DNA of 64,000 nucleotides from positions 1 to 64,000 of the forward strand of contig NZ_JTHP01000008.1 of the NCBI RefSeq assembly GCF_000943545.1, read 5' to 3'. This DNA comes from Paenibacillus terrae. Lineage in GTDB: Bacteria; Bacillota; Bacilli; Paenibacillales; Paenibacillaceae. The position numbers were made by a program, and so were the translations under genes. Positions 609 through 21,674 of this stretch are shown piece after piece; the first letter of the stretch is position 1, and each line of letters starts with the position of its first letter. Below the pieces are notes generated by a model, which was given only the letters and a program-made list of their open reading frames with translations, had not been told where the DNA came from and did no database searches.

Positions 609-1928
609 CTAATAATAAAATAATTTTTCTTTCTGCCCTTCCCTCACTAGACTTTCGAAGTCTAAATAGGTCTGATCATCTGCAAAATCATGAAAACTCT
701 CAAATAATCTTACACACCTGATAAAAAAGGCTTCGTGATTTATCGTAAATGATTTAGACAAAACGTCCAGTAAGTATTTAAAACCATGTTCGTACATGTC
801 CGCAGATGGTTGATGTTGGGTAATAGAATCAATCTCCGTTTCAAATCGTTGAAGTACATCATCTACATCTATTTGATAGCGGTTAGCCGCCATCATAATA
901 TTCAAAAGCTCTGTAACCAATTTTTTTTCGGATTTATCCGGAGGAGCACAAATATACTCTACATAATCAGAGAGCACACTTACATCTCCAGATAAAAGCT
1001 TGTTTACATAGATATTAACTTGTGCCCAATGCTGGAACAACTTTATCCAATGCTGCGTATCCTCGTCCGTCTCTTTAACCCAGCTTAAATCAGCGTACGC
1101 GTAAGTATGTTGTAATGCCTGCTTATAATCCCCCTGTGCTTCACAAACACTTGCGCATAACAAATCAGCGTAAGCGATGTATACAAACATGGGTCGGCTC
1201 GCTTTTTTGTGAAGGTCCTTTTTCTTTCGCTTATGCTGACGATGGTCCAGGGAGTATTGAATTTTCGCTTTATTCCGCATTTTTTGGACTGTCTTATCAA
1301 CCTTCCCCCACTGACGCAAGGAACGATACACATTTGCCAGATCTTTCAGCGCATCAAGCTGGTCTATTTCATCAAGCCGCTCTACGAAGGGATGAAAATG
1401 GCATGCTGCCTCGAAATTTTGGTTTTGGTCATCTCCGATGTTAATTGTAAACAAACGATACTGGCAAAGGGCCAGTTGTTCCGAATATTGCTTTCTCTCG
1501 CTGATCGCTACACTCTCGTAAAGAATGGCTGCCGCCGCATGTTTGCCGTCTTTGAAGAAGTCTTCCGCCACATTAAACAGCAACACGGAATACACCAGAT
1601 TGTCCATTAACAAATCGGCCATTTGCTGAATACAGTCCAGCTTGTCCAACTCGGCGCAATTATACAAAAAAGGTCTTACCCTCCGCCAGTTAGGGGTGAT
1701 ATCCGTTAAATATTCCTGTATATATTGCTTGTAAAAATGCCCTCTGGGATGTCCCATAACTGCCGTAATCCGATCCAGTTGATCGACGGAAAACGTACGA
1801 TTTCCATTTACCAAGGTACTCACCGTACCTGCATTTAGTCCTGCTGTTCGTCCAAGTCGGGTAATGTTCAGTCCGTTTGTCTTCATGTATGTATCAAGCT
1901 CTGCTCGAATCGTGGTTGTATGGTTCAC
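609..1928 (-). CDS. RRNPP/AloR-like HTH-TPR peptide-receptor regulator, orphan
   Basis: A 439-aa protein with an N-terminal XRE-type helix-turn-helix (residues about 7-50, with the motif NAGTVSTLVNGNR) followed by a long all-helical TPR-like region, the architecture of RRNPP cytoplasmic receptors for re-imported signalling peptides. It is homologous along its length to the receptor at 14812. The GTG at 1928 is chosen because AAAGGGG lies at the same distance as in the paralog (GGGG, about 9 nt, then the start and the shared HTTT/NTTT residues); the longer frame starts inside that Shine-Dalgarno. Unlike the paralog, no pro-peptide gene overlaps its 3' end, so it looks orphaned. It is transcribed divergently from the AbrB-like gene at 2184. 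Confidence 0.85.
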   Translation of the reverse strand: MNHTTTIRAELDTYMKTNGLNITRLGRTAGLNAGTVSTLVNGNRTFSVDQLDRITAVMGHPRGHFYKQYIQEYLTDITPNWRRVRPFLYNCAELDKLDCIQQMADLLMDNLVYSVLLFNVAEDFFKDGKHAAAAILYESVAISERKQYSEQLALCQYRLFTINIGDDQNQNFEAACHFHPFVERLDEIDQLDALKDLANVYRSLRQWGKVDKTVQKMRNKAKIQYSLDHRQHKRKKKDLHKKASRPMFVYIAYADLLCASVCEAQGDYKQALQHTYAYADLSWVKETDEDTQHWIKLFQHWAQVNIYVNKLLSGDVSVLSDYVEYICAPPDKSEKKLVTELLNIMMAANRYQIDVDDVLQRFETEIDSITQHQPSADMYEHGFKYLLDVLSKSFTINHEAFFIRCVRLFESFHDFADDQTYLDFESLVREGQKEKLFYY

Positions 1929-2048: not shown

Positions 2049-2098
2049 AAGTATACCATTTTATAGAATTTTTTTGTATACTTTTCAACAGTTTACTT
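2049..2098 (-). promoter_or_regulatory. Promoter/operator block shared by both RRNPP receptor genes
   Basis: Two GTATAC hexamers (2051-2056 and 2076-2081) lie 25 bp apart start to start. On the minus strand the block also contains AAGTAAAC, TTGAAA and a TATACT that could be the -10 box. About 80% of 50 positions match, without gaps, the block at 14674-14722 upstream of the second receptor. It lies between this receptor and the divergent AbrB-like gene and could control both. Confidence 0.65.
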
Positions 2099-2183: not shown

Positions 2184-2648
2184 TTGAAAAGTACAGGTAT
2201 GACACGTCCTTTAGATTCGTTAGGTCGTATCGTCATTCCCAAAGAGATGCGAATTTCAATGGATTACAAGATGGGTGATCCTGTTGAGATTTTTGCTGAT
2301 GAGGAAACGGGTATTCTCGCCTTACGAAAATATACCGGGGTGACGTGTAAAATGTGTGGTTCGGCGGAGCAATTGACTTATTTTAGAGACAGCTTTATTT
2401 GTGGGGAATGTATTCGTGATTTGAAAAATGGTACGAATTCCAGCCCTATCACCAGGCCGTCCAAATCGACTTTCTCCAACAGGGAAAGGCCATTGAAGCA
2501 ATCCAAACGTCTGCGTCGATCAACGCAACAGATGATCGAAAGCCTAAAAGAATTGATGCAGAAGCAACCCAATGCAGCACAGCACGAATATGCAAAGATA
2601 CTTGAGGTTTCCCAAGCCCGTATATCCCAGCTCAAAAAAATGCTATAA
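2184..2648 (+). CDS. AbrB/SpoVT-domain transition-state-type regulator with zinc ribbon
   Basis: A 154-aa protein. Residues 4-48 form a SpoVT/AbrB swapped-hairpin DNA-binding domain (RPLDSLGRIVIPKEMR). Next comes a CxxC...CxxC pair (CKMCG and CGECI, residues about 55-78) that looks like a small zinc ribbon, then a C-terminal helical segment resembling an HTH (ARISQLKKML). Translation starts at TTG behind AAAGGAGG. The full-length paralog at 21128-21571 has the same three-part layout, while the copies at 16745 and 19866 keep only the AbrB domain. AbrB-type proteins repress post-exponential genes in Bacillus; the targets here are unknown. Confidence 0.85.
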   Translation: MKSTGMTRPLDSLGRIVIPKEMRISMDYKMGDPVEIFADEETGILALRKYTGVTCKMCGSAEQLTYFRDSFICGECIRDLKNGTNSSPITRPSKSTFSNRERPLKQSKRLRRSTQQMIESLKELMQKQPNAAQHEYAKILEVSQARISQLKKML

Positions 2649-8378: not shown

Positions 8379-11300
8379 ATGGCAGTACAGCTATCCAATA
8401 ATGTGTTCTCTATCTCAGTCGGAGATTACGGCGATATCTCTTCCTTACGTCTGGTAGGAGACACATTCAATACGAACTATGTCATGAACAGCTCCAACGC
8501 ACCCAAACAGAATACGGCGGATCATCAGTGGCTTGGTGAACTCATGTTTACCTACCGTATCGGTAACGGGGCGTGGACTCGGGCATGGACAAGCAATTCT
8601 GCGGATGCACGGAAGATCACCTCATCCGGCAGTAGTGTTCAGGTATCGTATCAAAATTCGTCAAACAATCAGGGAATACGTAATTTTACATTAAATGAAA
8701 CGTATTCGCTGGTTAACGATTACCTGCATTGGCAGATGAAAGTAACGAACACTTCCAATCAAACGCTCGAAATCGGAGATTGGGGGCTTCCGCTGCCGTT
8801 TAACGAGTATTGGTCCGGCGGCAATAACGAACAAATCTATGAAACAAGGGTACTTTCCCACTCCTTTGTAGGGCATAACAGTTCTTTTATTACCGCTGGA
8901 CGGCCTAGCGGCATCGGGCCTTATCTGCTGCTTGTCCCTGATTCCTCTACAGGCGCAGGTCTCGAATATCAGGATCATTGGAGAGTCGAGGAGCACCCGG
9001 GCAGCATGTGGGCTATGGAGCAAGGTGGCTGGTCCGAAGGACTAAATGTGTTCTATATCCACTCCAATGTCATCAAGAGCACCAACCGTGGCTATCTTTC
9101 CAACACCAGTCTGTCGCTGGCTCCAGGCGAAAGCAAAACGTATGCCTTTAAATTTTACAAGGTAGCGGACGAGCAGGCGGTAAAGGACAGGCTGTACAGC
9201 GAGGGACATGTAGATGTGACCGTGGTTCCGGGCATGATTTTCCCGACGAATCTCAAGGCTAAATTCGATCTGCATACCAGCAAATCCATTACCTCTGTCA
9301 CAGCACAGTATCCATCTGAAACCACCATCAGTTATCTGGAAACAGCCCCCACAAATCATAAAATATATGAGCTTGCACTGGGACGTCTGGGGCACAACAA
9401 TATTACTGTGAACTATGGCAACGGCGAAAAAACCGTTCTCCAGTTCTATGCCATCGAGCCAGTCGACGCTGCACTTCAGCGCCACTCTACCTTCATGATC
9501 AACAGTACCCAGTGGAACTTGCCAGGCGACCTGCGGGACAAGGTGTTTGACGACTGGATGATGCAATATAAGGCCAAGCGCAACAGCTTTGCAGGCTACT
9601 GGGGCTGGGGCGACGATTGGGGATTCACTCATGGCCAGTTTCTGGCTGAGAAAAACGTTCAGAAGCCCGTGGCATCCGAGATTAAAGCAGTCGATGATTA
9701 TCTGGAGGTTGCCGTCTGGACAAATCTGATGGAAGGCCATCATACCGATTATCTGGTTCCCGATTTCCTGATGCCACAGCCCAACACAACACCGACGTAC
9801 CGGGGCTATGCCTATCCGCATATTTACAACACGTTTTTCAGCATGTATAAGCTCGCCAAGCTGTATCCGAACCTGATTAGCTACCGCAATAGTAAAAACA
9901 CGTATTTGCTACGTGCTTACCGTATTTTCAAGGCGCTGTATGAAGGTCCTGTTGCCTACAACTGGAACACGGGTCTCATGGGTGAACTGACCACGCCGGA
10001 TATTATTAAAGCGCTTCAGGAAGAAGGCTTGACCACCGAGGCTAACGATCTGATCGCCAAGATGGCTACCAAGTACAACAATTTCAAAAACACCACCTAT
10101 CCCTACGGCTCCGAGTATAACTATGACAATACAGGCGAAGAAGCGGTATATACGCTCGCCAAAATGAACAGCAATACGACGATGATGAGTAAAATCAATG
10201 CCAAAACACGCGCCGCACGCGGTCATATGCCTGTGTGGTACTACTACGCCGATCCGGTCACGATTACCGGGGAGAATTGGTGGAACTTCCAGTACACCAC
10301 CTCGCTGGCAGGCTACGCGATGGATGACTGGACACGCCGTTATTCGTCCAAGCCCGAAGTAGATCAACGCTTGTCCTATGCCGCCAAGCTCGCTAACATC
10401 GGGGCCATTAACTCGGGACAGATCAGCTCCGATCCAGCCAATATCGGTGCAGTATCGTGGACGTATCAGGCGGGTAAGGGCAATTACGGCGCTCTTGGTC
10501 TGGACGGCGGCCCACTCTTCAATGGCTGGCGTGGCATGTCTGGAGAAGCGGATTTGGGGCTGTTCGGAGCGATTAAAATTCTAAGCTCGGATGTTGCTGT
10601 CGATCCCATTTTCGGCTTGTATGGCTATGGCTGTGATGTTACAGAAAGCGGTAACAGCTATACGATCACTCCCAAGGACGGTGTGCTCCAGCGGCTGCAT
10701 CTGATCTCCCAAAAGCTGAGTCTGGAACTGAATCGGGACCAATACACCTCGGCTATCGTGGCCAAATCCAAAAATAACGTCCGGCTGACGCTGAAAAATA
10801 CAACAACGGGCACAGCCCACTCCACCATCCTGACCTTAACCGGACTGGCCGCAGGTACGTATGACGTGCTCGTAGACGGAACGAAAACCGGCTCCGTCAC
10901 GGCTGTTAACGGTTCAGTGGCTACGGTCAGACTGAATATCGGTACGGCGGCCTCCTACGATATTCGTATTCAGACAGGCTCAGGTAATCCGACTCCAACT
11001 GGAGACGTTGTAGCCCACTATGATTTTAATGAAACAAGCGGGTCTACCGCAGCCGATTTGTCAGGCAATGGGCAGCAGGCCAATGTGAACGGCGGCTCGT
11101 GGGGCGTTGGACGGAACGGCAATGCTCTGCTCTTAAACGGAACAGCCGCCTATGCCAGCCTGCCAGCTGGTCTGGTCAGCAGCGTTAACGATTTTACGAT
11201 TGCGGCCTGGGTACGGGTGAACACCCATAACGGCTGGGCCCGCCTGTTTGATTTTGGAGCAGGCACGGATCGGTATATGTTTTTGGCACCCAAGGCCGAA

Positions 11301-11678
11301 GGGACAGGTATGCGTTTTGCCATCACCGTCTCGGGCAACGGAGAGGAGCAGCAGTTGAACGCCCCTGAGCTGGCTACAGGGGTCTGGAAGCATGTAGCCG
11401 TGACGCTGTCAGGCAATACAGGGGTTATGTATGTAGACGGTGTGGAGGCCACGCGCAACACGAACATGACGTTAAAGCCGTCCAGCCTTGGGCTGACGGA
11501 CCGGAACTATATTGGAAAATCCCAGTTTGATGATCCTTATCTGAACGGGGCAGTAGATGAGCTGATCATCTACAACAGAGCGCTGACAGCTCAGGAGATT
11601 CGCAGCTTGGCCTCGGTAAGCAACGCTGTTGCAGGCCATAAAAAGGTAGCCAGTTCGTATGCCGAAGGGGCAGATTAA
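8379..11678 (+). CDS. DUF5695-like glycan-associated protein with C-terminal LamG domain
   Basis: A 1099-aa protein. Residues about 1-850 resemble the uncharacterised DUF5695-type family: a beta-rich N-terminal part, then a helical part with aromatic and acidic motifs (YWGWGDDWGFTHGQF, WWNFQYTTSLAGYAMDDWTRRY) reminiscent of alpha-toroid glycan-active enzymes. Residues 875-1075 form a LamG/jelly-roll carbohydrate-binding module (DFTIAAWVRV, GVWKHVAVTLSG, AVDELIIYNRALTAQEI). Start ATG follows AAGGAGGTTGATAGC. The protein has no N-terminal signal peptide, which is odd for a lectin-bearing enzyme. No catalytic residue can be assigned with confidence. The family call is from memory. Confidence 0.7.
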   Translation: MAVQLSNNVFSISVGDYGDISSLRLVGDTFNTNYVMNSSNAPKQNTADHQWLGELMFTYRIGNGAWTRAWTSNSADARKITSSGSSVQVSYQNSSNNQGIRNFTLNETYSLVNDYLHWQMKVTNTSNQTLEIGDWGLPLPFNEYWSGGNNEQIYETRVLSHSFVGHNSSFITAGRPSGIGPYLLLVPDSSTGAGLEYQDHWRVEEHPGSMWAMEQGGWSEGLNVFYIHSNVIKSTNRGYLSNTSLSLAPGESKTYAFKFYKVADEQAVKDRLYSEGHVDVTVVPGMIFPTNLKAKFDLHTSKSITSVTAQYPSETTISYLETAPTNHKIYELALGRLGHNNITVNYGNGEKTVLQFYAIEPVDAALQRHSTFMINSTQWNLPGDLRDKVFDDWMMQYKAKRNSFAGYWGWGDDWGFTHGQFLAEKNVQKPVASEIKAVDDYLEVAVWTNLMEGHHTDYLVPDFLMPQPNTTPTYRGYAYPHIYNTFFSMYKLAKLYPNLISYRNSKNTYLLRAYRIFKALYEGPVAYNWNTGLMGELTTPDIIKALQEEGLTTEANDLIAKMATKYNNFKNTTYPYGSEYNYDNTGEEAVYTLAKMNSNTTMMSKINAKTRAARGHMPVWYYYADPVTITGENWWNFQYTTSLAGYAMDDWTRRYSSKPEVDQRLSYAAKLANIGAINSGQISSDPANIGAVSWTYQAGKGNYGALGLDGGPLFNGWRGMSGEADLGLFGAIKILSSDVAVDPIFGLYGYGCDVTESGNSYTITPKDGVLQRLHLISQKLSLELNRDQYTSAIVAKSKNNVRLTLKNTTTGTAHSTILTLTGLAAGTYDVLVDGTKTGSVTAVNGSVATVRLNIGTAASYDIRIQTGSGNPTPTGDVVAHYDFNETSGSTAADLSGNGQQANVNGGSWGVGRNGNALLLNGTAAYASLPAGLVSSVNDFTIAAWVRVNTHNGWARLFDFGAGTDRYMFLAPKAEGTGMRFAITVSGNGEEQQLNAPELATGVWKHVAVTLSGNTGVMYVDGVEATRNTNMTLKPSSLGLTDRNYIGKSQFDDPYLNGAVDELIIYNRALTAQEIRSLASVSNAVAGHKKVASSYAEGAD

Positions 11679-11872: not shown

Positions 11873-13432
11873 ATGTGTAAAGAACATGCAAGACCACCCC
11901 TGTTGGCAAGTGTTGACTGTGATTCATGCGGTACTGCTTCTGCTTCGATAAATGAGGCTCTCCTTGAAACAGAAACCGCACAAGTCTCGGGTTCCGGCGT
12001 ATCCCCGCAAGCGATTGGCAGCGATGCCGAGGTGATTGACCGCTTCGGACGGATTATTAACTGGTACGGCGTTGAACTGGTGGATTGGCAAGGCTATATC
12101 GCCAATCCGTTCATCAATCTGACCGTGAAGCCACCTGCCAGTGCGGCGTATCCGATCAGCATCACGCTTAAGGCGCAGGGAACGTCCCGGCTTATGATGA
12201 ATCTGCCCAGTACGTTATCTGCCACTGGCGCTACGAAGGTGCTGAATTTTAACAATGCATCCGAGAGGAAGGATTTTAAGCTGGAGGTTGCACCTGACCG
12301 CAACGGTGGCCCGGACGAGATTGAGCACTATACGCTGTCCCTCACCATTGCAGACAGCGCGGGGGCCACACGGACCCATACCATTCCGATCCGGGTATGG
12401 GATCAGGACGATAATCAGGATACCAAATTCCCATTGGTGTTCGATTATCGCTACGATACGGTCAATCACTATTTTGATGATGCAGGTATCCGCAAAGCAG
12501 CCGAGCAGGCGATTAAGGACTGGTTTTACTTCTTCGATGTCGAGCCGTTCGATACCGTTCCCGCCGGAGCTGAACGCAACTATATTCCGAACAACGACTG
12601 GAACGGGCATACGATTGGCACGAATAACGCTCCTTATAATGGAGAATGGATTTTCCTGCGTGGTATCGATGGCCCTTATTCGACTGGATGGCCTGGTAAC
12701 AGTGGTTATTACCACACCAAAAACGGCGTCCGGATTCCGGGTCCCATTCATCGTTCGCTGGGAACCGCACTGGATTTTTATCCAGATGCTCAGGTGTTCA
12801 CCTCGCTGAATGATGATGACTGGTACAAAACTGATCTGACTCAGGTGACAGACGTATACGGACTCATCATGCATGAGTTCGGCCATGCCGTCGCTTTCAG
12901 TGATACATGGTCGGGGATGCAGGCTTATCATAGCAGCGGCGGCGCCGATTCTGTCGTTGAAGCGTACCAAGGCGTCCGGGTTCCGCTGGATGGAAGCTAT
13001 CACATCCCGGCGGATCGGCAATACTGGGACCGTCTCAGCGGACAAAGCGCAGGCTGGGTGGCAGAATTCCCGGTACGCCGCTGGATGCTGAACAAGCTGA
13101 CGCTGCTCATAGCCGAGAAAGCAGGCTGGAAGCTGAACCGCAAGCTGACACCTTTCCTCGAACCGGAAATCGTCACAGCCTCCTTGCCCAAAGCCGTCAA
13201 AGGACAAAGCTACAGCCAAAAACTGACAGCCAAGGGTGGTGTCCCCTTCTACGATTGGACACTGAAAAGCGGCAATCTGCCGACCGGACTGATACTCGAC
13301 CGCTATACCGGAACGATCAGCGGCACCGTATCCACCAGCCAGTCGCAGAGCAGCTACACCTTTACGATAGAGCTTCGGGATTATGATGAGTTGGCGAAGC
13401 CATTCACACGCAGCTTTACAATTGGTTTGTGA
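11873..13432 (+). CDS. Zinc metallopeptidase with C-terminal putative Ig domain, no signal peptide
   Basis: A 519-aa protein. Residues 334-338 are HEFGH, with a third possible metal ligand in the following AVAFSD (pattern HExxHxxxxxD), as in snapalysin-like zincins. Upstream is a beta-sandwich region (residues about 60-190) with a Calx-beta-like feel (YTLSLTIADSAGATRTHTIP); downstream is a putative Ig fold (SLPKAVKGQSYSQKL, LPTGLILDRYTGTISGTV). ATG at 11873 is chosen because GAGGAGGATTCCGCC precedes it. The N-terminus (MCKEHARPPLLASVD) has no signal peptide, yet the architecture is that of an extracellular protease. Substrate unknown. Confidence 0.72.
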   Translation: MCKEHARPPLLASVDCDSCGTASASINEALLETETAQVSGSGVSPQAIGSDAEVIDRFGRIINWYGVELVDWQGYIANPFINLTVKPPASAAYPISITLKAQGTSRLMMNLPSTLSATGATKVLNFNNASERKDFKLEVAPDRNGGPDEIEHYTLSLTIADSAGATRTHTIPIRVWDQDDNQDTKFPLVFDYRYDTVNHYFDDAGIRKAAEQAIKDWFYFFDVEPFDTVPAGAERNYIPNNDWNGHTIGTNNAPYNGEWIFLRGIDGPYSTGWPGNSGYYHTKNGVRIPGPIHRSLGTALDFYPDAQVFTSLNDDDWYKTDLTQVTDVYGLIMHEFGHAVAFSDTWSGMQAYHSSGGADSVVEAYQGVRVPLDGSYHIPADRQYWDRLSGQSAGWVAEFPVRRWMLNKLTLLIAEKAGWKLNRKLTPFLEPEIVTASLPKAVKGQSYSQKLTAKGGVPFYDWTLKSGNLPTGLILDRYTGTISGTVSTSQSQSSYTFTIELRDYDELAKPFTRSFTIGL

Positions 13433-14673: not shown

Positions 14674-14722
14674 AAGTAAACCATTGAAAGGTATACAAAA
14701 ATATCCCAAAAGATGGTATACT
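14674..14722 (+). promoter_or_regulatory. Promoter/operator block of the second RRNPP receptor
   Basis: AAGTAAAC, CCATTGAAA, then GTATAC hexamers at 14691-14696 and 14716-14721, again exactly 25 bp apart as in the block at 2049-2098. TATACT (14717-14722) is a plausible -10, with a weak -35 (TACAAA) 17 bp upstream. Conservation with the other receptor promoter argues for autoregulation by this receptor family. Confidence 0.65.
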
Positions 14723-14811: not shown

Positions 14812-16185
14812 TTGTCCAATACAACCACGATACTCGCAGAACTGATGAAATACATGAAAGAAAAAAAATTAGGTGTTAGCGATTTTGCCAGGGCATGCAA
14901 TATGAATCCCGGCACAATTAGCGGCTTCGTCAATGGAAATCGCAAGCTCTCAGTCTACCAATTGGATCGAATCACAGAAACGATGGGATACCCTATTGGT
15001 TATTATTATGAGCACTATATTTCTGAGTACTTGGCCGATGCCGACCCTAACTGGCGAAGAATGAGTCCTTTTTTGGAAAGTTGTGCAAAATTGAATAAAT
15101 TGGATTGTATACAGCAAGTTGTAGATATGTTATTGGATAAGTTGGGCTATGCTACTCCATTATTTGAGCTTGCTGAGAAACTATTTGAAGACGGTTTGTA
15201 TGAGGCAGCAGCTATACTTTATGAAAATGTGGCACTAAGTGAGAATAAGCAGCACTCGGAGCGCTTGGCTCTATGTCAGTACCGCCTATTTCAGAGCAGG
15301 CAAGGGGAGGACCAGGAAAAAAACTATGAAGCAGCCGTGCAGTTTGGAACCTACGTTGTTCGTTTGGACGAACTAGACCAACTAGATGGTTTAAAGGCTT
15401 TAGCGAATACATATCGTTCGTTACGCAAATGGGACAAAGTGGAATTTTTCGCTAAAGCTTTGGGAGAAAAGGCTGAGATTCAATACAAATTGAGCAAACA
15501 GCAGCATCGTGTGAAAAAAGAAAATTCAAGGCAGCCCAGCTTCCCTTTGTTTGCTTACTGGGCATTCTCACATTTACTTCGCGCACAAGCCTATGACGAG
15601 AGGAAAGACTATGAAAAGGGACTTCAGCATATTAAAAAATATGCAAATTTAAGCTGGGTAACGGATACGGATGAAGAAACCTTGAAATGGAAAAAGAATT
15701 ATGAGGAGTGGGCAGTAGTAAATATGCATGTAAATAAGCTTCTTTCGGGCGACAGGAACGTGCTTCCCGATTATGTAGCTTATATTTCTTCAAGAAAAGA
15801 TGAGGTTCTCCCCGCGCTTGATAACATCCTTGAGGCTGCCAACCGATATCATTTTGATGTAGATGATATTTTAAAGCAATTCGAAGCAGATATTTCATCT
15901 TATCTGGAGCAACAAAAAGTTGAAAGCTTTTATACTCAACGATTCATAACAGAGCGTTTTATACATTTTTCAAAGGAATTATCCGCCTATTATTTGACCA
16001 AGGGAAGATTTACTGATGGCTTTAGATTTTTATTAAGTTGTTTGGAAAAATCCACATTAATCAATAATAAATCGTATATAATTAAATGTATGAGCCTGTT
16101 TGAGTCTTATCATGATTATGCGTCATCTGATACAAAGACAGCGTACAAAAATATCATTAATGAGGTGAACAAAGATGAAGTGTAA
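14812..16185 (+). CDS. RRNPP/AloR-like quorum-sensing receptor (HTH-TPR regulator)
   Basis: A 457-aa cytoplasmic regulator: XRE-type HTH at residues about 5-50 (VSDFARACNMNPGTISGFVNG) followed by TPR-like helical hairpins through residue 455. This is the layout of PlcR, NprR, Rap and AimR receptors and of the AloR receptors described in P. polymyxa. The TTG start follows GGGGTGGTTTATT, and the paralog at 609-1928 has an equivalent start context. Its 3' end overlaps by 11 bp a 41-codon pro-peptide gene, the hallmark of a receptor-signal pair. Directly downstream lie the Spo0E/AbrB cassettes. Confidence 0.88.
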   Translation: MSNTTTILAELMKYMKEKKLGVSDFARACNMNPGTISGFVNGNRKLSVYQLDRITETMGYPIGYYYEHYISEYLADADPNWRRMSPFLESCAKLNKLDCIQQVVDMLLDKLGYATPLFELAEKLFEDGLYEAAAILYENVALSENKQHSERLALCQYRLFQSRQGEDQEKNYEAAVQFGTYVVRLDELDQLDGLKALANTYRSLRKWDKVEFFAKALGEKAEIQYKLSKQQHRVKKENSRQPSFPLFAYWAFSHLLRAQAYDERKDYEKGLQHIKKYANLSWVTDTDEETLKWKKNYEEWAVVNMHVNKLLSGDRNVLPDYVAYISSRKDEVLPALDNILEAANRYHFDVDDILKQFEADISSYLEQQKVESFYTQRFITERFIHFSKELSAYYLTKGRFTDGFRFLLSCLEKSTLINNKSYIIKCMSLFESYHDYASSDTKTAYKNIINEVNKDEV

Positions 16186-16300
16186 AATACTGTTAACCTT
16201 TTTAGTAACCAGCTTTATATTAGTATCCCTTGTAACTGTCCCCTTACAATTTCAAGATAAAGAGCCCAGTTATCAACCGAATCATCACGGCGAAATGTAA
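16175..16300 (+). CDS. Secreted signalling pro-peptide (AloP/Phr/PapR-like)
   Basis: A 41-aa open reading frame with a textbook exported pro-peptide layout: basic start MKCK, a hydrophobic core (ILLTFLVTSFILVSLVTV) and a polar tail (DKEPSYQPNHHGEM) that would contain the mature oligopeptide. It overlaps the receptor gene by 11 bp, starts 7 nt after GAGGTG located inside the receptor coding region, and ends 26 bp before a terminator. In RRNPP systems such peptides are exported by Sec, trimmed, re-imported by an oligopeptide permease and bound by the adjacent receptor. The exact mature peptide cannot be told from sequence alone. Confidence 0.85.
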   Translation: MKCKILLTFLVTSFILVSLVTVPLQFQDKEPSYQPNHHGEM

Positions 16301-16326
16301 CCCATTTTAGATAAAGTGAATTAAGG

Positions 16327-16352
16327 GACGTACTCTTAGAGTACGTCTTTTC
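16327..16352 (+). terminator. Terminator of the receptor-peptide operon
   Basis: GACGTACTC-TTA-GAGTACGTC followed by TTTTCTCTTT: perfect 9-bp stem, 3-nt loop, T-rich tail. Confidence 0.9.
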
Positions 16353-16383
16353 TCTTTGGAATATATAGAACGCTTACCAAACA

Positions 16384-16401
16384 TATACTTTTCAATGGTT
16401 T
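16384..16401. promoter_or_regulatory. Receptor-promoter motif upstream of Spo0E-A
   Basis: TATACTTTTCAATGGTTT. Its complement, AAACCATTGAAAAGTATA, matches the receptor block at 14678-14695 (AAACCATTGAAAGGTATA) at 17 of 18 positions. It lies 43 bp upstream of the Spo0E-like ATG, suggesting control by the same RRNPP receptor. Inference only. Confidence 0.5.
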
Positions 16402-16443
16402 CCACATGAATCCCTAAAATAAGAGTACAAAGGGGGAACTGTG

Positions 16444-16623
16444 ATGCAAACCGACAACATTTTGAGTCACCATGTAGAAGCAGCTAGACAAAAACTGCAT
16501 GATCTCCAAAATAAATATGGCTTTGGTCACTCTAGTGTACTCAAACAATCCATGGTTCTGGACGAACTTATCAATCAATATCAATACACTTATTATAGAC
16601 ATGGAAAAAAACCGACTGTTTGA
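16444..16623 (+). CDS. Spo0E-like aspartyl-phosphate phosphatase (copy A)
   Basis: A 59-aa protein with the Spo0E family pattern: a short helix (VEAARQKLHDLQNKYG), a loop and the signature helix SMVLDELINQYQ corresponding to SQELDxLI of Spo0E/YisI/YnzD. Such phosphatases remove phosphate from Spo0A~P and delay sporulation. ATG at 16444 follows GGGGGAACTGTG; the upstream in-frame GTG is less well placed. Copy B (19565) is almost identical and copy C (20906) is diverged. A receptor-promoter motif precedes it and a dedicated terminator follows. Confidence 0.8.
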   Translation: MQTDNILSHHVEAARQKLHDLQNKYGFGHSSVLKQSMVLDELINQYQYTYYRHGKKPTV

Positions 16624-16637
16624 ATGCAGCGGATTTA

Positions 16638-16671
16638 GGCGAGTAAGCTTTGGGGGCGCTACTCGCCTTTT
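16638..16671 (+). terminator. Terminator of Spo0E-A
   Basis: GGCGAGTA/TACTCGCC stem (16638-16645 and 16660-16667) followed by TTTTATAT. The equivalent stem in copy B has a paired change (GGTGAGTA/TACTCACC), which shows that base pairing is maintained. Confidence 0.8.
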
Positions 16672-16744
16672 ATATAGCATATAATCTGAGTGAAGACATT
16701 ACTCCTCAGACTTCTTTTTAAGAAAATGTATATAAGTTACCTAC

Positions 16745-16885
16745 TCAATACATGATGATGGAATCCTCCGTAATGAAAAACTCCATTGGCGTATCCTTGT
16801 TAATACCAAGTCGCCTTCTTATTTCTATAGGGATCACAATTCTCCCCAAACTGTCTAAATTTCTTACCATTAACGCGTCACTCAA
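16745..16885 (-). CDS. Stand-alone AbrB DNA-binding domain protein (copy A)
   Basis: A 46-aa protein consisting only of the SpoVT/AbrB domain (VRNLDSLGRIVIPIEIRRR, LGINKDTPMEFF). It lacks the zinc ribbon and C-terminal helices of the full-length paralog at 21128. The start is TTG at 16885 behind AAGGAGTGAACACA; longer frames lack a Shine-Dalgarno. It is divergent from the payload genes at 17123/17317. It could be an active mini-repressor, since AbrB domains dimerise and bind DNA by themselves, or a truncated relic. Confidence 0.68.
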   Translation of the reverse strand: MSDALMVRNLDSLGRIVIPIEIRRRLGINKDTPMEFFITEDSIIMY

Positions 16886-16988
16886 TGTGTTCACTCCTTC
16901 AATTTTCATGATCCTTATTTTAATAAATATAGTAATATATGCCTTATGATAGTGAAATTTTATAACCGAAAGGATAAAAGTGGTAATA

Positions 16989-17004
16989 TGATACTTTAGT
17001 ATCA
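16989..17004. promoter_or_regulatory. Dyad operator between AbrB-A and payload A
   Basis: TGATACTTTAGTATCA, a near-perfect 16-bp palindrome inside a block conserved in all three cassettes (equivalents at 20109-20124 and 21675-21690). It is centrally placed between the divergent AbrB-like and payload genes and is the likely binding site of the AbrB-like protein. Confidence 0.5.
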
Positions 17005-17122
17005 ATTTACATTTTATTCAAAAAAATTATATAAAAGATTCCTTATATATGGTACGTTTGTAAGGTAGTAAAACAAATATAAGGGATGGTGATACGAATG
17101 CAGACAAGGTGATATTCTTCTT

Positions 17123-17320
17123 TTGAATAAAGAAGAAACTAGAAAATTGGTAAATGATAATGTGAAAAACCTGTTAAAGGCTGTTGCAATCTGCGTGTCG
17201 TATTTTTCATTTTTTGTCCTACATCGATATGTTGGCCGTTATGCCCAAGCTGTTCCCTGTTACTATAATTTTGAAACATGTAAGAGCTTTCAAAAAAACT
17301 CAAGGAGGATTAAACATTGA
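17123..17320 (+). CDS. Small putative membrane protein, translationally coupled to payload A
   Basis: A 65-aa frame with one hydrophobic stretch (AVAICVSYFSFFVL) and a basic C-terminus; no recognised family. It starts with TTG behind AAGGTGAT, and its TGA stop overlaps the TTG start of the secreted payload (ATTGA). A 4-codon frame with a better Shine-Dalgarno ends just ahead of it. Its reality is uncertain: the overlap supports it, while the weak start and lack of family argue against. Confidence 0.4.
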   Translation: MNKEETRKLVNDNVKNLLKAVAICVSYFSFFVLHRYVGRYAQAVPCYYNFETCKSFQKNSRRIKH

Positions 17321-18132
17321 ATAAAAAAAGTGTGTTTTCGGGATTATTGTCGCTATTTATGTTTTTTAGTTTATTAACGTCAGTGGGCGCTCAAGCAAGC
17401 AATGAAGTCGATCAGGGGATTATTCCTGCATTATCCGATGCCTCATCTGTTAGCGAGAGTACACTTGATGAGCACTTGCAAGAAATGGGATTTAAAACAA
17501 CCGAAATTTCTACTTTGCCAATTGAGATGAAAAGAGATATTTCTTCTAAAGACGGCAAAAAGGTAGCTGCTCAAGAATTGGACACTACTGTTACCATTAC
17601 TGATGAGAAAGGAAATATAGTAACTGACCAAGTTGCTACTAATCAGCTTGCTGCAAGTGCAACTCCTAATATTTCCGGTTATGCTGTGTACTCAGGCACA
17701 TCTAACAACGGAAGGGAAAGAGTCTATCAAGTTTATGCTACTTATAGATGGCCTAGCAGTCCATTTAATTTTTACACAGATAATTTAGCAATGGCTTGGC
17801 AGTCTAATGCTACTCCTACAGGTACCCCAAATGGACAACATACTGTGGATGGGAATACTTATTCGAGTCCAGTTGATAAAGAAGAAGTCAGCGGTACTGC
17901 TTGGCTTGTAGATATGAAAGCTGGCGGGAGTACTACAGTTCAAAGTGGCTGGGGACGTCAAGAATTAAGATATGCGACTTCATCCAAAGGGATTAATACA
18001 GCTATTGCAGTAGGATATTCACATAGAACCGTGCCTACATTCACTACAGGCATTGCGTTAAGCTATGGAGTTATCTCCTTTAGTGGGTCTGGCCAAACTG
18101 ACTATTATGGTCGCTTTAATTTTACGATTTAA
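17317..18132 (+). CDS. Secreted protein of unknown function (payload A)
   Basis: A 271-aa protein with a clear Sec signal peptide (MNKK, hydrophobic core, cleavage near VGAQASNE). A charged, Thr-rich pro-like region (residues about 30-115, with KKVAAQELDTTVTITDEKGN) follows, then a beta-rich C-terminal domain rich in Gly, Ser, Thr and aromatics (GYAVYSGTSNNGRERVYQVY, WGRQELRYATSS, GSGQTDYYGRFNF). The TTG start follows AAGGAGGATTAAACA. No family recognised. It has a strong terminator and is followed by a small two-TM protein. A secreted toxin or matrix protein is possible, but nothing proves it. Confidence 0.78.
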   Translation: MNKKSVFSGLLSLFMFFSLLTSVGAQASNEVDQGIIPALSDASSVSESTLDEHLQEMGFKTTEISTLPIEMKRDISSKDGKKVAAQELDTTVTITDEKGNIVTDQVATNQLAASATPNISGYAVYSGTSNNGRERVYQVYATYRWPSSPFNFYTDNLAMAWQSNATPTGTPNGQHTVDGNTYSSPVDKEEVSGTAWLVDMKAGGSTTVQSGWGRQELRYATSSKGINTAIAVGYSHRTVPTFTTGIALSYGVISFSGSGQTDYYGRFNFTI

Positions 18133-18152
18133 AAGTTTTTAGAATCATAACG

Positions 18153-18195
18153 AATAAATCCTTCAATCATTCATAGAATGGTTGGAGGATTTATT
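18153..18195 (+). terminator. Terminator of payload A
   Basis: AATAAATCCT/AGGATTTATT arms with additional inner pairing (CATTC/GAATG), giving a long stable hairpin 20 bp after the stop. Confidence 0.8.
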
Positions 18196-18273
18196 ATTAC
18201 GAAACAAACATATCTTCATCCTTTAATTGGGTATATTATATAAGGATAATCATGAATTGAAGGGAGAACAGTT

Positions 18274-18462
18274 ATGATTGCAATCTATATTATTGGCACC
18301 TTCGTTGGTGTATGGGTACTGTCTTGGATTTTTGGGGCAATGGGTTTTAATATTTTTGAAGGACCAAACGCTAGTGCACTTTATTTCTATGGATCTATCA
18401 TAATAGGCATTCTTCTTAATATAAATGATGGATTAGCAGATAACAAAAACAAGCAGGAATAG
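18274..18462 (+). CDS. Small two-TM membrane protein
   Basis: A 62-aa protein with two hydrophobic helices (IYIIGTFVGVWVLSWIFGAM and ALYFYGSIIIGILLNI) and a charged tail (DNKNKQE). ATG follows GAAGGGAGAACAGTT. It comes directly after the payload A terminator, with its own promoter-like AT-rich region. Position parallels the small membrane proteins that follow payloads B and C, so an immunity-type role is conceivable but only inferred. Confidence 0.65.
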   Translation: MIAIYIIGTFVGVWVLSWIFGAMGFNIFEGPNASALYFYGSIIIGILLNINDGLADNKNKQE

Positions 18463-18569
18463 ATAGGAGACAAATGCAACAACTTCAAGCTCTTTCACTT
18501 CTTATTTCATCTCGGTTGGAAAGAAGGTCGTGATAATACGATGAAGATATACAAGCAAATAACGAATCG

Positions 18570-18602
18570 AACCGCTTCCTCAACGTGAGATGGCGGTTTT
18601 TC
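18570..18602 (+). terminator. Terminator-like hairpin
   Basis: AACCGC (18570-18575) pairs with GCGGTT (18593-18598), followed by TTTTC. It lies in the 258-bp spacer between the two-TM gene and the transposase remnant; nothing else was recognised there. Confidence 0.5.
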
Positions 18603-18720
18603 TTCGACCGCGCCGATAGGCGGAATAACTTCTCGGTCAGCTAAAAAAAGGTTTGACGCCGTTGAAAAAAGTGTGCCAGAATTGCTCTTTTAACGATGAA
18701 TGTTTTCTATTATGAATTTT

Positions 18721-19410
18721 TCAAATTGTCTCTTTTCGTTTGCGATACAACTGCTTGCCAGATTTACTGAGGCGGTTGTTCCGCACCCATTCCTTGCTGT
18801 CCTCCCAAACATGTCGGGTCACCACCTTTCGGTGGTTTTGGGATTGCGTACATTGACCTAGCAAAGGACAGGTCTTGCACTGCTCTGAATTGGAAGCGTA
18901 TTGCCGGTATCCCTTGCGGTCTGTCGTCCGGTATTTAATTCGTGACTCGCCGGACAAATATAGAGATTACGCTCAGCATCAAAGGTAAACTGCCAATTTG
19001 GAAACAATCCTTGCTTGGGATGAAACCTGCGGTGAGCAATGACGGCGAAAATCTTTCGGCTTTGTAATCCTCGGCAAATCGGTGTAGTTAAATAACCCGA
19101 ATCTAAGGCTACGGCTTCGACCTTAAATTTAAAACGTTCTTGCTGACGGTCCAAACGCGACAAATAAGGCACGGAATCATGGACATTTCCGGGCGTGACA
19201 TGCACATCGGTAATGAGATTGTATTTGGTATCCACCGTGCGGTGATCCAGATAAAAGAAGCCCTCCGGTTTGCCATCCCGAATCATATATCCGCTGTCTG
19301 GATCGGTCTTGCTCACTTTTATTTCTTTCTCCTCGTTCACTTCCTCTCTGGGTTTCAGGGCTTTTTTCCATGCTCTTTCCGGTCTTCAGCTACGGCGGTG
19401 TCGTATTAAA
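18721..19410 (-). pseudogene. IS1182-type transposase remnant, frameshifted
   Basis: Minus-strand fragments of a DDE transposase of the IS1182/IS5-like kind: EEKEIKVSKTDPDSGYM, GFFYLDHRTVDTKYNLITDV, VALDSGYLT (catalytic Asp), then in another frame YASNSEQCKTCPLLGQCT (zinc-finger-like Cys cluster) and the end SKSGKQLYRKRKE. At least two frameshifts are needed: one near 18945 (after CPASHELN) and one near 19365 (after EHGKKP). The N-terminal half is gone. No matching terminal inverted repeats were found. It sits between cassettes A and B. Confidence 0.82.
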
Positions 19411-19505
19411 TAATTTGGACATAAAGAAGGCTGTCGAGACTTTCTCGACAATCTGGACGTACTCTTGGAGTAGGATTTTTCTTTGTGTGATATTTTACCA
19501 AACCC

Positions 19506-19522
19506 ATACTTTTCGATGGTTT
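19506..19522. promoter_or_regulatory. Receptor-promoter motif upstream of Spo0E-B
   Basis: ATACTTTTCGATGGTTT, the copy B equivalent of 16385-16401 with one substitution (A to G in CAATGG). It lies 42 bp before the Spo0E-B ATG. Confidence 0.4.
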
Positions 19523-19564
19523 CCACATGAATCCCTAAAATAAGAGTACAAAGGGGGAACTGTG

Positions 19565-19744
19565 ATGCAAACCGACAACGTTTTGAGTCACCATGTAGAA
19601 GCAGCTAGACAAAAACTGCATGATCTCCAAAATAAATATGGCTTTGGTCACTCTAGTGTACTCAAACAATCCATGGTTCTGGACGAACTTATCAATCAAT
19701 ATCAATACACTTATTATAGACGTAAAAAAAATCCGACTGTTTAA
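19565..19744 (+). CDS. Spo0E-like aspartyl-phosphate phosphatase (copy B)
   Basis: A 59-aa near-duplicate of copy A, differing at only a few residues (N-terminal DNVL versus DNIL; C-terminal YYRRKKNPTV versus YYRHGKKPTV). The signature SMVLDELINQYQ is intact. Start ATG lies behind GGGGGAACTGTG. Promoter region and terminator are also duplicated, so it is probably functional and raises the dose of this Spo0A~P phosphatase. Confidence 0.8.
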   Translation: MQTDNVLSHHVEAARQKLHDLQNKYGFGHSSVLKQSMVLDELINQYQYTYYRRKKNPTV

Positions 19745-19758
19745 ATGTAGCAGATTGG

Positions 19759-19793
19759 GGTGAGTAACCTTTGGTGGTACTACTCACCTTTTA
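19759..19793 (+). terminator. Terminator of Spo0E-B
   Basis: GGTGAGTA/TACTCACC stem (19759-19766 and 19781-19788) then TTTTATG. Relative to copy A, a C-G pair became T-A on both arms: a compensatory change. Confidence 0.8.
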
Positions 19794-19865
19794 TGTAGTG
19801 CATAATCTGAGTGAAGACATCACTCCTCCGATTTATTTTTGAGAAAATGTACATAAGTTACCTAC

Positions 19866-19991
19866 TTAATACATTATGATGGAATCCTTCGTAGTGAAAA
19901 ACTCCATTGGAGTATCCGTGTTAATGCCAAGTCGCCTTCTTATTTCTATAGGGATCACAATTCTCCCCAAACTGTCTAAATTTCTTACCAT
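19866..19991 (-). pseudogene. AbrB-domain gene with destroyed start codon (copy B)
   Basis: Same truncated AbrB domain as copy A, but the TTG start has become TTA (minus-strand codon at 20006-20004), leaving AAGGAGTGAACACA without a start. The next in-frame ATG (19991) has no Shine-Dalgarno. Several substitutions change the C-terminus (for example NTDTPMEFFTTKDS). It is probably not translated, so payload B may have lost its local repressor. Confidence 0.65.
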
Positions 19992-20108
19992 TAACGCGTC
20001 ACTTAATGTGTTCACTCCTTCAATTTTCATGATCCTTATTTTAATAAATATAGTAATATAGGCTTTGAATGAGTGGAATTTTATAATATAAAGGATAATA
20101 TGGTAATA

Positions 20109-20124
20109 TAATGCTTTAGTATCA
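20109..20124. promoter_or_regulatory. Cassette B operator, degraded dyad
   Basis: TAATGCTTTAGTATCA: the right half of the copy A palindrome is intact and the left half has two changes. It shares the flanking GGTAATAT and TTTACATTTT with the other cassettes. Confidence 0.4.
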
Positions 20125-20216
20125 TTTTACATTTTTTTCAGTATAAAAATACAAATGATACCTTATATATGTTAATGTTGTGTGGCAATACAAAAAATAG
20201 AAAAGGACGCGTTAGT

Positions 20217-20672
20217 ATGTTAAAATTGAAAAACACAGCAGTAATTCTTACGGGTGTCTTAGCTCTTACGGCAGTAGCTCCACTGGCAGCTTCTGCTGCT
20301 CCTACTGCGGGAATCAAAGTATCGAAGGATGGTAGAGGTATAGTTATCCAACAAACTGGCCAAGAGGTACATGAGGTTCTTGGTGGGACAAGTCCGACGA
20401 TGGACTTAACTGTTAAAAAAGGTTATGGACATGTAAAGATTAAAGTTCGGAATGAAGGAACATCAAATCTCACTTGGAGCTTGCAGGGTAACGGGAAAGA
20501 ATATATCTATAAAACTGTTGGCAAAGGAGACACATTAACGTGGACTAGTCTTAGTTCATTCCCTAATGGGATGCCTTCAGGGGAATACGTAATTCAATTC
20601 AGAGCCAACGGTAACAAAGTTGAAGGCGAAGCTTGGGGTACTACTGGTCAGTACCCGGGAGACATTAACTAA
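20217..20672 (+). CDS. Secreted small protein of unknown function (payload B)
   Basis: A 151-aa protein with a strong signal peptide (MLKLKNTAVILTG, cleavage near ASAAPTAG). The mature part of about 120 residues is predicted beta-rich (MDLTVKKGYGHVKIKVRNEG, YVIQFRANGNKVEGEAWG), resembling a single beta-sandwich domain. ATG at 20217 is chosen because AAAGGA precedes it and the signal peptide begins there. It occupies the position of payloads A and C but is unrelated to either. Followed 17 bp later by a 38-aa single-TM peptide. Function unknown. Confidence 0.75.
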   Translation: MLKLKNTAVILTGVLALTAVAPLAASAAPTAGIKVSKDGRGIVIQQTGQEVHEVLGGTSPTMDLTVKKGYGHVKIKVRNEGTSNLTWSLQGNGKEYIYKTVGKGDTLTWTSLSSFPNGMPSGEYVIQFRANGNKVEGEAWGTTGQYPGDIN

Positions 20673-20689
20673 CCGTTGGGGGTTCTGAA

Positions 20690-20806
20690 TTGAATAAGAA
20701 GAAAGTATGGAAGATTGTAGGGTTCTCTGTTTTGGGAATTGTTTTAATCTACATTTTCTTGGTTATTGTAGGAATTTCTCAGCTTGTTACTAACGTAACA
20801 CCATAG
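20690..20806 (+). CDS. Single-TM micropeptide after payload B
   Basis: A 38-aa frame: MNKKKVWK, one hydrophobic helix (GIVLIYIFLVIVGI), then a short tail ending NVTP. TTG start behind GGGGGTTCTGAA. A similar 36-aa frame (MNKK, one helix, tail ending PPQ) occurs at 23646, and the bases after both genes match (20837-20858 versus 23760-23781), so they belong to one small gene family. Possible payload-associated immunity or toxin peptide; inferred. Confidence 0.6.
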   Translation: MNKKKVWKIVGFSVLGIVLIYIFLVIVGISQLVTNVTP

Positions 20807-20867
20807 GACTAGACTTTATGCTTTTTCGTACTTACAGTTGAATTATTGTAGGTCCTATCACAGCGGT

Positions 20868-20912
20868 CAAACACAAAAGACTTCCTTAATTATAGGAGGT
20901 CTTTTGTGTTTG
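20868..20912 (+). promoter_or_regulatory. Long hairpin burying the Spo0E-C ribosome binding site
   Basis: Arms 20868-20886 and 20894-20912 pair at 18 of 19 positions around a 7-nt AT loop. The 3' arm contains both the Shine-Dalgarno AGGAGG and the GTG start (20906) of the Spo0E-like copy C. It may act as terminator for the upstream micropeptide gene and at the same time occlude translation of copy C. Confidence 0.7.
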
Positions 20913-21118
20913 CGGTAGAAGTAGCTAGACAACAACTGTATGATCTCCAAAATAAACATGGCTTTGGTCACGCTAGTGTACTCAAACAATCAATGGTTCT
21001 GGACGAACTTATCAATCAATATCAATACACTTATTATAGACATGAAAAAAGCCGATTGCCTAAATGCAACCGACTGGGCGAGAAACTTGTGGTGAGGTCG
21101 CTCGCCCATTTATTGTAA
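20906..21118 (+). CDS. Spo0E-like phosphatase (copy C), altered at both ends
   Basis: The 70-aa frame retains the family core (VEVARQQLYDLQNKHG, SMVLDELINQYQ) but has lost the N-terminal residues of copies A and B; it begins at GTG inside the hairpin at 20868-20912. A frame change near 21045 (CATGAAAAAAGCC) replaces the usual stop and extends the protein through the terminator stem (SRLPKCNRLGEKL...). Either weakly expressed, conditionally translated or decaying. Confidence 0.6.
   Translation: MFAVEVARQQLYDLQNKHGFGHASVLKQSMVLDELINQYQYTYYRHEKSRLPKCNRLGEKLVVRSLAHLL
21076..21112 (+). terminator. Terminator of Spo0E-C
   Basis: GGGCGAG (21076-21082) pairs with CTCGCCC (21101-21107), followed by ATTTATTG. 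It is the third version of the conserved stem of cassettes A and B, here lying inside the extended reading frame. Confidence 0.6.
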
Positions 21119-21127
21119 CACCTAGTC

Positions 21128-21571
21128 TTACTTAGGGGGATCTAATTCAGTCGTCTTACTTTTAAGGAAAGAGACATAAGTTGGTGAAATCTTCAATAGC
21201 TGCGCGTAGGTTTTCATGGAAGCACCGGGATATTGTTTCATGAGGTCTAACAGGAGCTTAACCATTTGTGCATCAGATACATTTTGAATATCTTCTGATG
21301 TAGAAGGTAGCTGATTTTCTGGGATTGGGTACCCTTTGAGGCCATTTGCACAGTAGATACATACATAAGATTTTTTGAAGCGAATGAGTTGTTTGTTTTC
21401 CCCGCATAGGAGACATGATTCACTTTCTGATCTACGCATAACAATAGCGCTTTCAGTTATGAAAAACTCCATTTCTGTATTCTTGTTGATACCCAATCGA
21501 TTTCTTATTTCCACTGGGATTACAACTCTCCCTAGGCTATCTAAATTTCTTTTCATTGCCGCGTCATTCAA
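21128..21571 (-). CDS. AbrB-like regulator with zinc ribbon, full length (copy C)
   Basis: A 147-aa protein: AbrB domain (KRNLDSLGRVVIPVEIRNR), then CLLCG...CIYCA (Cys pairs of a probable zinc ribbon, residues about 58-78) and a C-terminal HTH-like segment (YAQLLKISPTYVSFLK). It has the same three-part plan as the regulator at 2184. TTG start at 21571 behind GGAGGGG. Divergent from payload C, with the conserved operator between. This is the intact ancestor-like form of the truncated copies A and B. Confidence 0.85.
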   Translation of the reverse strand: MNDAAMKRNLDSLGRVVIPVEIRNRLGINKNTEMEFFITESAIVMRRSESESCLLCGENKQLIRFKKSYVCIYCANGLKGYPIPENQLPSTSEDIQNVSDAQMVKLLLDLMKQYPGASMKTYAQLLKISPTYVSFLKSKTTELDPPK

Positions 21572-21674
21572 AGTATACACCCCTCCAAGACATATAATCC
21601 TTATTTTCATAAAGATAGAAATATATGCCTTTGATGAGAGAAATTTTATAAACGAAAGGATAAATGTGGTAGTA

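Follow-up and report, generated by a model that had tools for sequence, protein, structure and literature searches.

In the Bacillus cereus group, the NprR-NprX and PlcR-PapR systems combine an HTH-TPR receptor with a downstream pro-peptide gene whose C-terminal end provides the signal, a layout that is also found at the locus described here. The Rap receptors of Bacillus, unlike AloR, have no HTH. Like the present receptor, they have TPRs, lie adjacent to genes for secreted pro-peptides, form many paralogues and are transferred horizontally (PMC5199041). Recombination of homologues was looked for as a source of Rap divergence, and the portion of Even-Tov et al. (2016, PMC5199041) considered here reports no evidence of it, whereas Alo receptors appear to recombine heavily, as shown below. 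Alo (AloR-AloP) is an RRNPP-like family of Paenibacillaceae described by Voichek et al. (2020), whose members Alo1-22, Alo13 being the one tested, consist of an HTH-TPR receptor and an overlapping or adjacent gene for a secreted peptide of 32-50 aa, in some cases with a spo0E-like gene directly downstream (PMC7425212). In Alo13, the promoter of the neighbouring spo0E is turned on by AloR and turned off by the peptide SHGRGG, and culture medium was found to hold fragments of 9 out of 14 Alo peptides (PMC7425212). The same direction of control, a receptor that activates the next gene and a peptide that shuts it off, is that of the AimR-AimP arbitrium; this is a phage system, whereas here no phage context was seen and the predicted target is a spo0E-like gene. 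A search of the later literature free of subscription yielded, among the matches listed, only PMC7425212 and PMC10075063 as recognisably dealing with Alo, in addition to a passing mention of AloR in the part of PMC9765709 considered; PMC7848036 was discarded as an unrelated word match.

The DNA analysed, called here the window, comprises 64,000 nucleotides of Paenibacillus terrae (assembly GCF_000943545.1, contig NZ_JTHP01000008.1, positions 1-64,000, forward strand), and its relevant features are collected in Table 1. The receptor gene aloR starts with a TTG and ends with the TAA at 16183-16185, and aloP, translated as MKCKILLTFLVTSFILVSLVTVPLQFQDKEPSYQPNHHGEM, runs from its ATG to the TAA at 16298-16300, with an overlap of 11 bp (16175-16185) between both genes and a Shine-Dalgarno sequence (GAGGTG, 16162-16167) 7 bp 5' of the ATG. 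The N-terminal hydrophobic segment of AloP reaches a hydropathy maximum of 2.5-2.6, the property on which the export segment was judged. Downstream, the hairpin core GACGTACTCTTAGAGTACGTC is followed by TTTTCTCTTT, and the stretch 16300-16360 has a fold energy of -18.2 kcal/mol, equalled in 3 of 200 shuffles. A simple terminator scan of the window did not call this hairpin, we guess because its stem runs on into the T run. A sequence-only reading of this DNA had proposed a receptor gene overlapping a 41-codon frame by 11 bp, with that same Shine-Dalgarno sequence, a receptor and secreted pro-peptide layout, and a terminator closing aloP. Overlap and coordinates turned out to be exact, the layout is supported, with Alo as the correct family among those that it named, and the hairpin with its T run bears out the terminator.

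Table 1. Features of the aloR-aloP locus and its surroundings (positions in the window).
Feature	Position	Strand	Description and basis
18-bp element	2077-2094		upstream of the orphan AloR
18-bp element	14678-14695		upstream of aloR; element search
aloR promoter region	14678-14722	+	clade-conserved block TGAAAGGTATA ... GGTATAMT, contains the 18-bp element 14678-14695; aligned upstream regions of relatives
aloR	14812-16185	+	HTH-TPR peptide receptor, predicted cytoplasmic, 457 aa; ORF
aloR modules	5', ~codons 1-220; 3', ~codons 221-457	+	likelihood scan over codons
aloP	16175-16300	+	pro-peptide, 41 aa; ORF, conservation, selection pattern
Intrinsic-terminator-like hairpin and T run	16325-16356	+	3' of aloP; fold, core stem-loop 16327-16347
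18-bp element	16384-16401	-	upstream of the spo0E-like gene, inverted with respect to the aloR copy; candidate AloR site
spo0E-like phosphatase gene	16441-16623	+	predicted direct target; PF09388, E 2.6e-12
AbrB/SpoVT-like DNA-binding protein	16745-16909	-	54 aa from its ATG; PF04014, E 1.1e-7 on 53 residues
271-aa secreted-looking protein	17317-18132	+	no assigned function; 89% identical protein in the same module of the P. peoriae plasmid
18-bp element	19505-19522	-	before the second spo0E-like gene
Second spo0E-like gene	19562-19744	+	PF09388; own 18-bp element (19505-19522, -)

By its sequence and layout, the pair can be firmly assigned to the Alo family of Voichek et al. (2020): its pro-peptide length and its overlap fit the published description, and a spo0E-like gene lies directly downstream, as in some published members (PMC7425212). 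It differs from Alo13 in its tail, NHHGEM instead of SHGRGG, and from published Alo loci in a second spo0E copy that stands behind a copy of the 18-bp element (PMC7425212). The genome contains 44 AloR matches (tblastn), 40 of them with an inspectable receptor 3' end, and 29 of the latter are followed by what we read as a credible AloP. For P. terrae NRRL B-30644, Voichek et al. (2020) report 40 AloR, of which 27 have an AloP and 12 are followed by spo0E-like genes (PMC7425212). The genome analysed here is almost surely that of this strain, and from this identity it follows that the aloR-aloP pair was probably already listed by these authors. Consequently, the claim of the sequence-only reading that the pair was undescribed is doubtful, and its warning that annotation may miss so short a gene does not always hold, as the aloP carried by the HS311 plasmid of P. 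peoriae has an entry of its own as a hypothetical protein (WP_280782348.1). We regard the pair as a functional-looking, ordinary Alo member, one of roughly thirty such pairs in the strain.

With AloP as a query, 27 matches were obtained across 16 of 75 genomes of the genus, and comparison of match positions showed that 26 of them abut an AloR, the 27th, in genome G013, carrying a stop. Lack of conservation or an excess of frameshifts had been named beforehand as what would speak against the gene, and neither was found: AloP accompanies 27 of the 30 receptors that share at least 52% identity, a set in which the receptor of the window is counted, and the interruption seen was an in-frame TAA that breaks aloP in locus L027, the frame of L025 being intact. 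Within the list of 30, no AloP was found downstream of L038_600 and L141, nor, outside this list, was any found for the second receptor of L023. The 11-bp overlap, the Shine-Dalgarno sequence and the frame recur in relatives. For seven sequences of the HGEM/HGEI type, dN/dS of aloP ranged from 0.13 to 0.65, below 1 in 21 of 21 pairwise comparisons, and the pooled pN/pS (same sequences and pairs) was 0.33 in the hydrophobic signal part, 0.74 in the linker and 0.15 in the last six codons, a value based on few sites. In addition, the AloP of the P. peoriae plasmid has a very different pro-region, yet its tail is AHHGEI. By these comparisons, aloP is under purifying selection, strongest on its last six codons (NHHGEM), which is the pattern to be expected if the last residues are the signal.

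Domain searches with AloR gave HTH matches that stay under the Pfam cut-offs, such as HTH_3 (21.3 bits versus a curated cut-off of 23, E 2.7e-4), and a TPR_2 match with an E of 0.58, and the protein is 46.9% identical over 99% to a helix-turn-helix regulator encoded on a plasmid of P. polymyxa ATCC 842. A profile search of PDB chains up to E 1 recovered HTH proteins and unrelated chains, with no PlcR, NprR, AimR or Rap among them, so that the solved chains of the NprR-NprX and PlcR-PapR systems are absent from the sequence matches at this threshold; a single-sequence search of PDB chains gave a single, unrelated match. The predicted model is helical, with an HTH and TPRs (mean pLDDT 89), and its residues 62-457 matched TPR folds. 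Among the fold matches listed, NprR-NprX came first of the RRNPP receptors (Z 15.7, rmsd 8.2, 294 aligned), above RapI (Z 14.6), RapH (Z 14.2) and AimR (Z 12.8, rmsd 18.4, 355 aligned), and generic TPR proteins outranked these receptors (LGN, Z 18.6). According to the model, AloR has a TPR superhelix like that of the solved RRNPP receptors, a fold that by itself is no proof of function.

We consider that the locus is, with a probability of about 0.8, an Alo quorum-sensing system in which a peptide derived from AloP is read by AloR, and free AloR activates the spo0E-like gene or genes. Secretion, trimming to six residues and the direction of control are modelled on Alo13 (Voichek et al. 2020). 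AloP, predicted to contain a hydrophobic export segment and a mature C-terminal signal, would leave the cell by the Sec route and be cut outside to a short peptide of about NHHGEM, which would then be re-imported and bound in the TPR groove of AloR. Free AloR would switch on the downstream spo0E-like gene or genes, and AloR bound to NHHGEM would no longer activate spo0E. High cell density would in this way lead to less Spo0E-like phosphatase, and the Spo0A~P output (sporulation and related programmes) could rise. In the window, the spo0E-like match begins 259 bp past the aloR match. L002, L028, L029 and L022, relatives whose tails are of the same type, have no spo0E downstream, which means that a given signal is not bound to one target.

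These relatives bear on a different reading, namely that the system is Alo but that peptide-bound AloR is the activator, as is the case for PlcR and ComR, whose peptides activate them, or that the main target is the AbrB-like gene, the 271-aa protein or genes elsewhere. We hold this to be possible but rather unlikely: spo0E is missing beside four of the seven receptors of the HGEM clade (L002, L027, L028 and L029) and the 271-aa gene is part of the same module on the plasmid, but in Alo13, the member tested in print, the peptide switches off and the adjacent spo0E is controlled (PMC7425212), and the presence of the 18-bp element before two spo0E copies argues against a target other than spo0E. 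The start of aloP inside aloR suggests coupled translation, and its hydrophobic segment makes up a large part of the product, both of which would suit a small membrane or leader peptide that acts within the producer, in self-sensing or in the coupling of translation, and does not signal to the population. Such a role is improbable, as the strongest selection falls on the last six codons and not on the hydrophobic part, and the peptide fragments reported in the medium for 9 of 14 Alo systems (PMC7425212) speak against an AloP that stays inside. As for the idea that aloP is just a short frame that arose by chance behind some unrelated regulator of the HTH-TPR type, hydrophobic stretches do turn up by chance in such frames, but the recurrence of overlap, Shine-Dalgarno sequence and frame, the 26 of 27 matches abutting an AloR, the presence of AloP with 27 of the 30 receptors that share at least 52% identity and a dN/dS below 1 in 21 of 21 comparisons leave it practically no probability, and we take it as refuted by conservation.

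What is new here is the mosaic make-up of Alo receptors, an unexpected mode of evolution found in an ordinary family member. Trees were built from 27 receptors, corresponding to the 30 at least 52% identical minus the partial L038_2 and the two without AloP, L038_600 and L141; also left unused were tandem second copies that the fetched locus does not cover up to their 3' end, and L021, L023 and L024, which duplicate other loci or coincide with them in position. Residues 1-320 rejected the tree built from residues 321-457 (AU 6e-50), residues 321-457 likewise rejected that of 1-320 (AU 2e-68), and third codon positions split at 320/321 gave the same result (AU 5e-33 and 1e-57), whereas a single random split of the same columns was not rejected (AU 0.115 and 0.058). 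In a likelihood scan in 20-residue steps, a single joint fitted best near codon 220, within a broad maximum at 180-240, and improved on one tree by 631 log units; with the split at this codon (1-220 vs 221-457), AU values were 5e-75 and 1e-48. The same conflict was detected in a second Alo clade of 16 receptors (AU 2e-98 and 8e-42), made up of 15 of its 17 named loci (L012 and L061 not in) and the second receptor of L130, with the internal stop of L017 written as X. MaxChi analysis of nine trios located breakpoints at codons 116-246, and at 315 for L022, with P = 0.0002 in each of them for all sites and for third positions alone (5000 permutations), although the trios were picked from trees of the same data and P is uncorrected for this choice; in a tenth trio, of near relatives, P was 0.0002, and 0.0016 for third positions. 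The sole internal stretch of the AloR model with a pLDDT below 50, a disordered loop at residues 233-238, lies next to the joint at around codon 220.

The analysis of aloP (26 sequences) revealed that it rejects the tree of aloR codons 1-220 (AU 2e-39 for nucleotides and 2e-7 for amino acids) and fits that of codons 221-457, and the tail class requires 8 changes on the 3' tree versus 12 on the 5' tree. Locus L027, with its broken aloP, was included in the set of 27 and bore the tail label E in one tail-class tree analysis, but was kept outside the 26-sequence test and the later tail-class change count. Outside its own lineage, the window's receptor has its 5' part nearest to L030 or L130, and its 3' part nearest to L028 and its kin. 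AloR genes thus appear to be mosaics. Because aloP agrees with the 3' tree, it and the 3' half of aloR seem to behave together as a signal cassette that can be exchanged as a unit, with a junction near codon 220 to a DNA-binding 5' half that has a different ancestry. We regard it as reasonably probable that Alo systems multiply by signal swapping, in which a portable cassette of the 3' part of aloR and aloP recombines onto different 5' halves (HTH and first TPRs), that the window's receptor is such a mosaic, and that R377 may read the glutamate of NHHGEM. The linkage of aloP to the 3' end of aloR makes co-transfer easy, and the match between signal and receptor would presumably be kept. An additional proposal, that the 5' half travels with its target spo0E, was put aside, as spo0E linkage needs 4 changes on the 5' tree versus 5 on the 3' tree, and 4 versus 4 with third positions, suggestive at most.

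Residue 377 is an arginine in all nine pairs with HGE[MI] tails and, among 49 other pairs at least 42% identical, an arginine in one (L154) and a lysine in another (L155); this count comprised 67 rows, with 9 lacking AloP set aside, and includes within the 49 the AloP candidates of L150 and L061, which are not credible. The association predicted an arginine in L038 (QHGEM), which has it, and in L037 (QHGDM), which has a glutamine instead. The HGE tail class arises once on the 3' tree, so the association of R377 with HGE represents one event, not repeated covariation. On the tree of residues 321-457, the bootstrap support for all HGE members together is weak, at 49. The apparent polyphyly of HGE tails on the whole-receptor tree is explained by the receptors being mosaic. 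R377, part of the 3' module, may recognise the glutamate of NHHGEM, an idea offered for mutagenesis alone. Convergent change would be expected at peptide-contact residues, and the HGE class, with R377, counts as one change on the 3' tree, so that the conflict between both halves could in principle derive from such convergence, or from alignment error, instead of recombination. This is very improbable: third codon positions show the same conflict as the whole alignment, which argues against convergence of contact residues, each of the nine MaxChi trios, with their uncorrected choice from trees of the same data, gave its P of 0.0002 also with third positions, and the one random split of these columns was not rejected.

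By itself, the pair is one more private channel in a bacterium for which 40 receptors of this kind had already been reported. The mosaic result matters more, since how paired signals and receptors diversify and yet stay matched is a long-standing question. For Rap-Phr, the answer in the part of PMC5199041 considered is duplication together with transfer, and no evidence is reported for recombination among the receptors, whereas Alo appears to use modular recombination. If signal swapping is true, a single exchange would put a target switch that already exists under a new private signal with no mismatched signal-receptor intermediate, a way out of the old problem of the joint change of signal and receptor. 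A term search found no mention of mosaic receptor structure in the main text of PMC7425212, and a search on mosaicism and recombination in the literature free of subscription gave no paper on Alo as judged by title and the start of the abstract.

The 18-bp element AAACCATTGAAARGTATA occurs at four sites of the window with up to 3 mismatches versus 0.10 expected, the pattern having been written from two of these four. In the whole genome, a 17-base form with up to 2 mismatches gave 6 sites versus 4 for the reversed control, and a 14-base core gave 7 versus 5 for the control. The copy before spo0E is kept on the P. peoriae plasmid with one mismatch, in our reading, and in G060, a genome of the same species, also with one, and it is degraded in G061 (4 mismatches). 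Only two of the 19 spo0E-linked loci (L001 and L025) have the element in common to the aloR and spo0E promoters, the scores of the other 17 (8-11) lying within or next to the shuffle maxima (9-12). A family-wide operator is ruled out by its absence as such in these 17 loci, and we keep the element as a weaker lead, possibly relevant for the window's lineage alone.

The region downstream of aloP is partly duplicated. Self-alignment showed that 16326-17082, with the hairpin, spo0E and the AbrB-like gene, is repeated at 19455-20202 with 88% identity, whereas G060 and G061 have one copy at this site, without the intervening insert, a 513-bp part of which is found elsewhere in the same region of G061. 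Between both spo0E copies there is a fragment of a DDE transposase (18858-19340, -). Altogether, the interval 16326-21610 contains three spo0E-like genes, starting at 16441, 19562 and 20906, each beside an AbrB-like gene, with a different upstream part in the last one. The first part of the insert (17083-18453) is 90% identical to the P. peoriae HS311 plasmid, on which the order aloR, aloP, spo0E, abrB and 271-aa gene is the same as in the window; the AbrB-like gene at 16745-16909 is shorter than its plasmid version (locus L130), from which it differs by a missing stretch. This suggests that the five-gene module moves between plasmid and chromosome. On this plasmid (NZ_CP011513.1, 213 kb), a second HTH regulator gene lies divergent and upstream of the module.

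Other AloR genes have different surroundings. In the window, an orphan AloR without any AloP candidate is encoded at about 609-1928 (-), divergent from an AbrB/SpoVT-like gene at 2184-2645 (+). In loci L127 and L128 (genomes G007 and G013), homology to the window starts within the promoter element (14685) and stops exactly at the stop of aloP (16300), so the unit common to these loci and the window is promoter-aloR-aloP. The closest paralogue in the genome (L129, contig 14 of G000, 9976-11555 and 12001-13374), with a receptor 83% identical and the tail THHGEM, adjoins an interbacterial-toxin-like gene that combines WXG100 with Tox-MPTase4 and a small downstream gene, not spo0E. Finally, distant AloR-like proteins are encoded by the Brevibacillus phages SecTim467 and Emery, with 29% and 25% identity, respectively.
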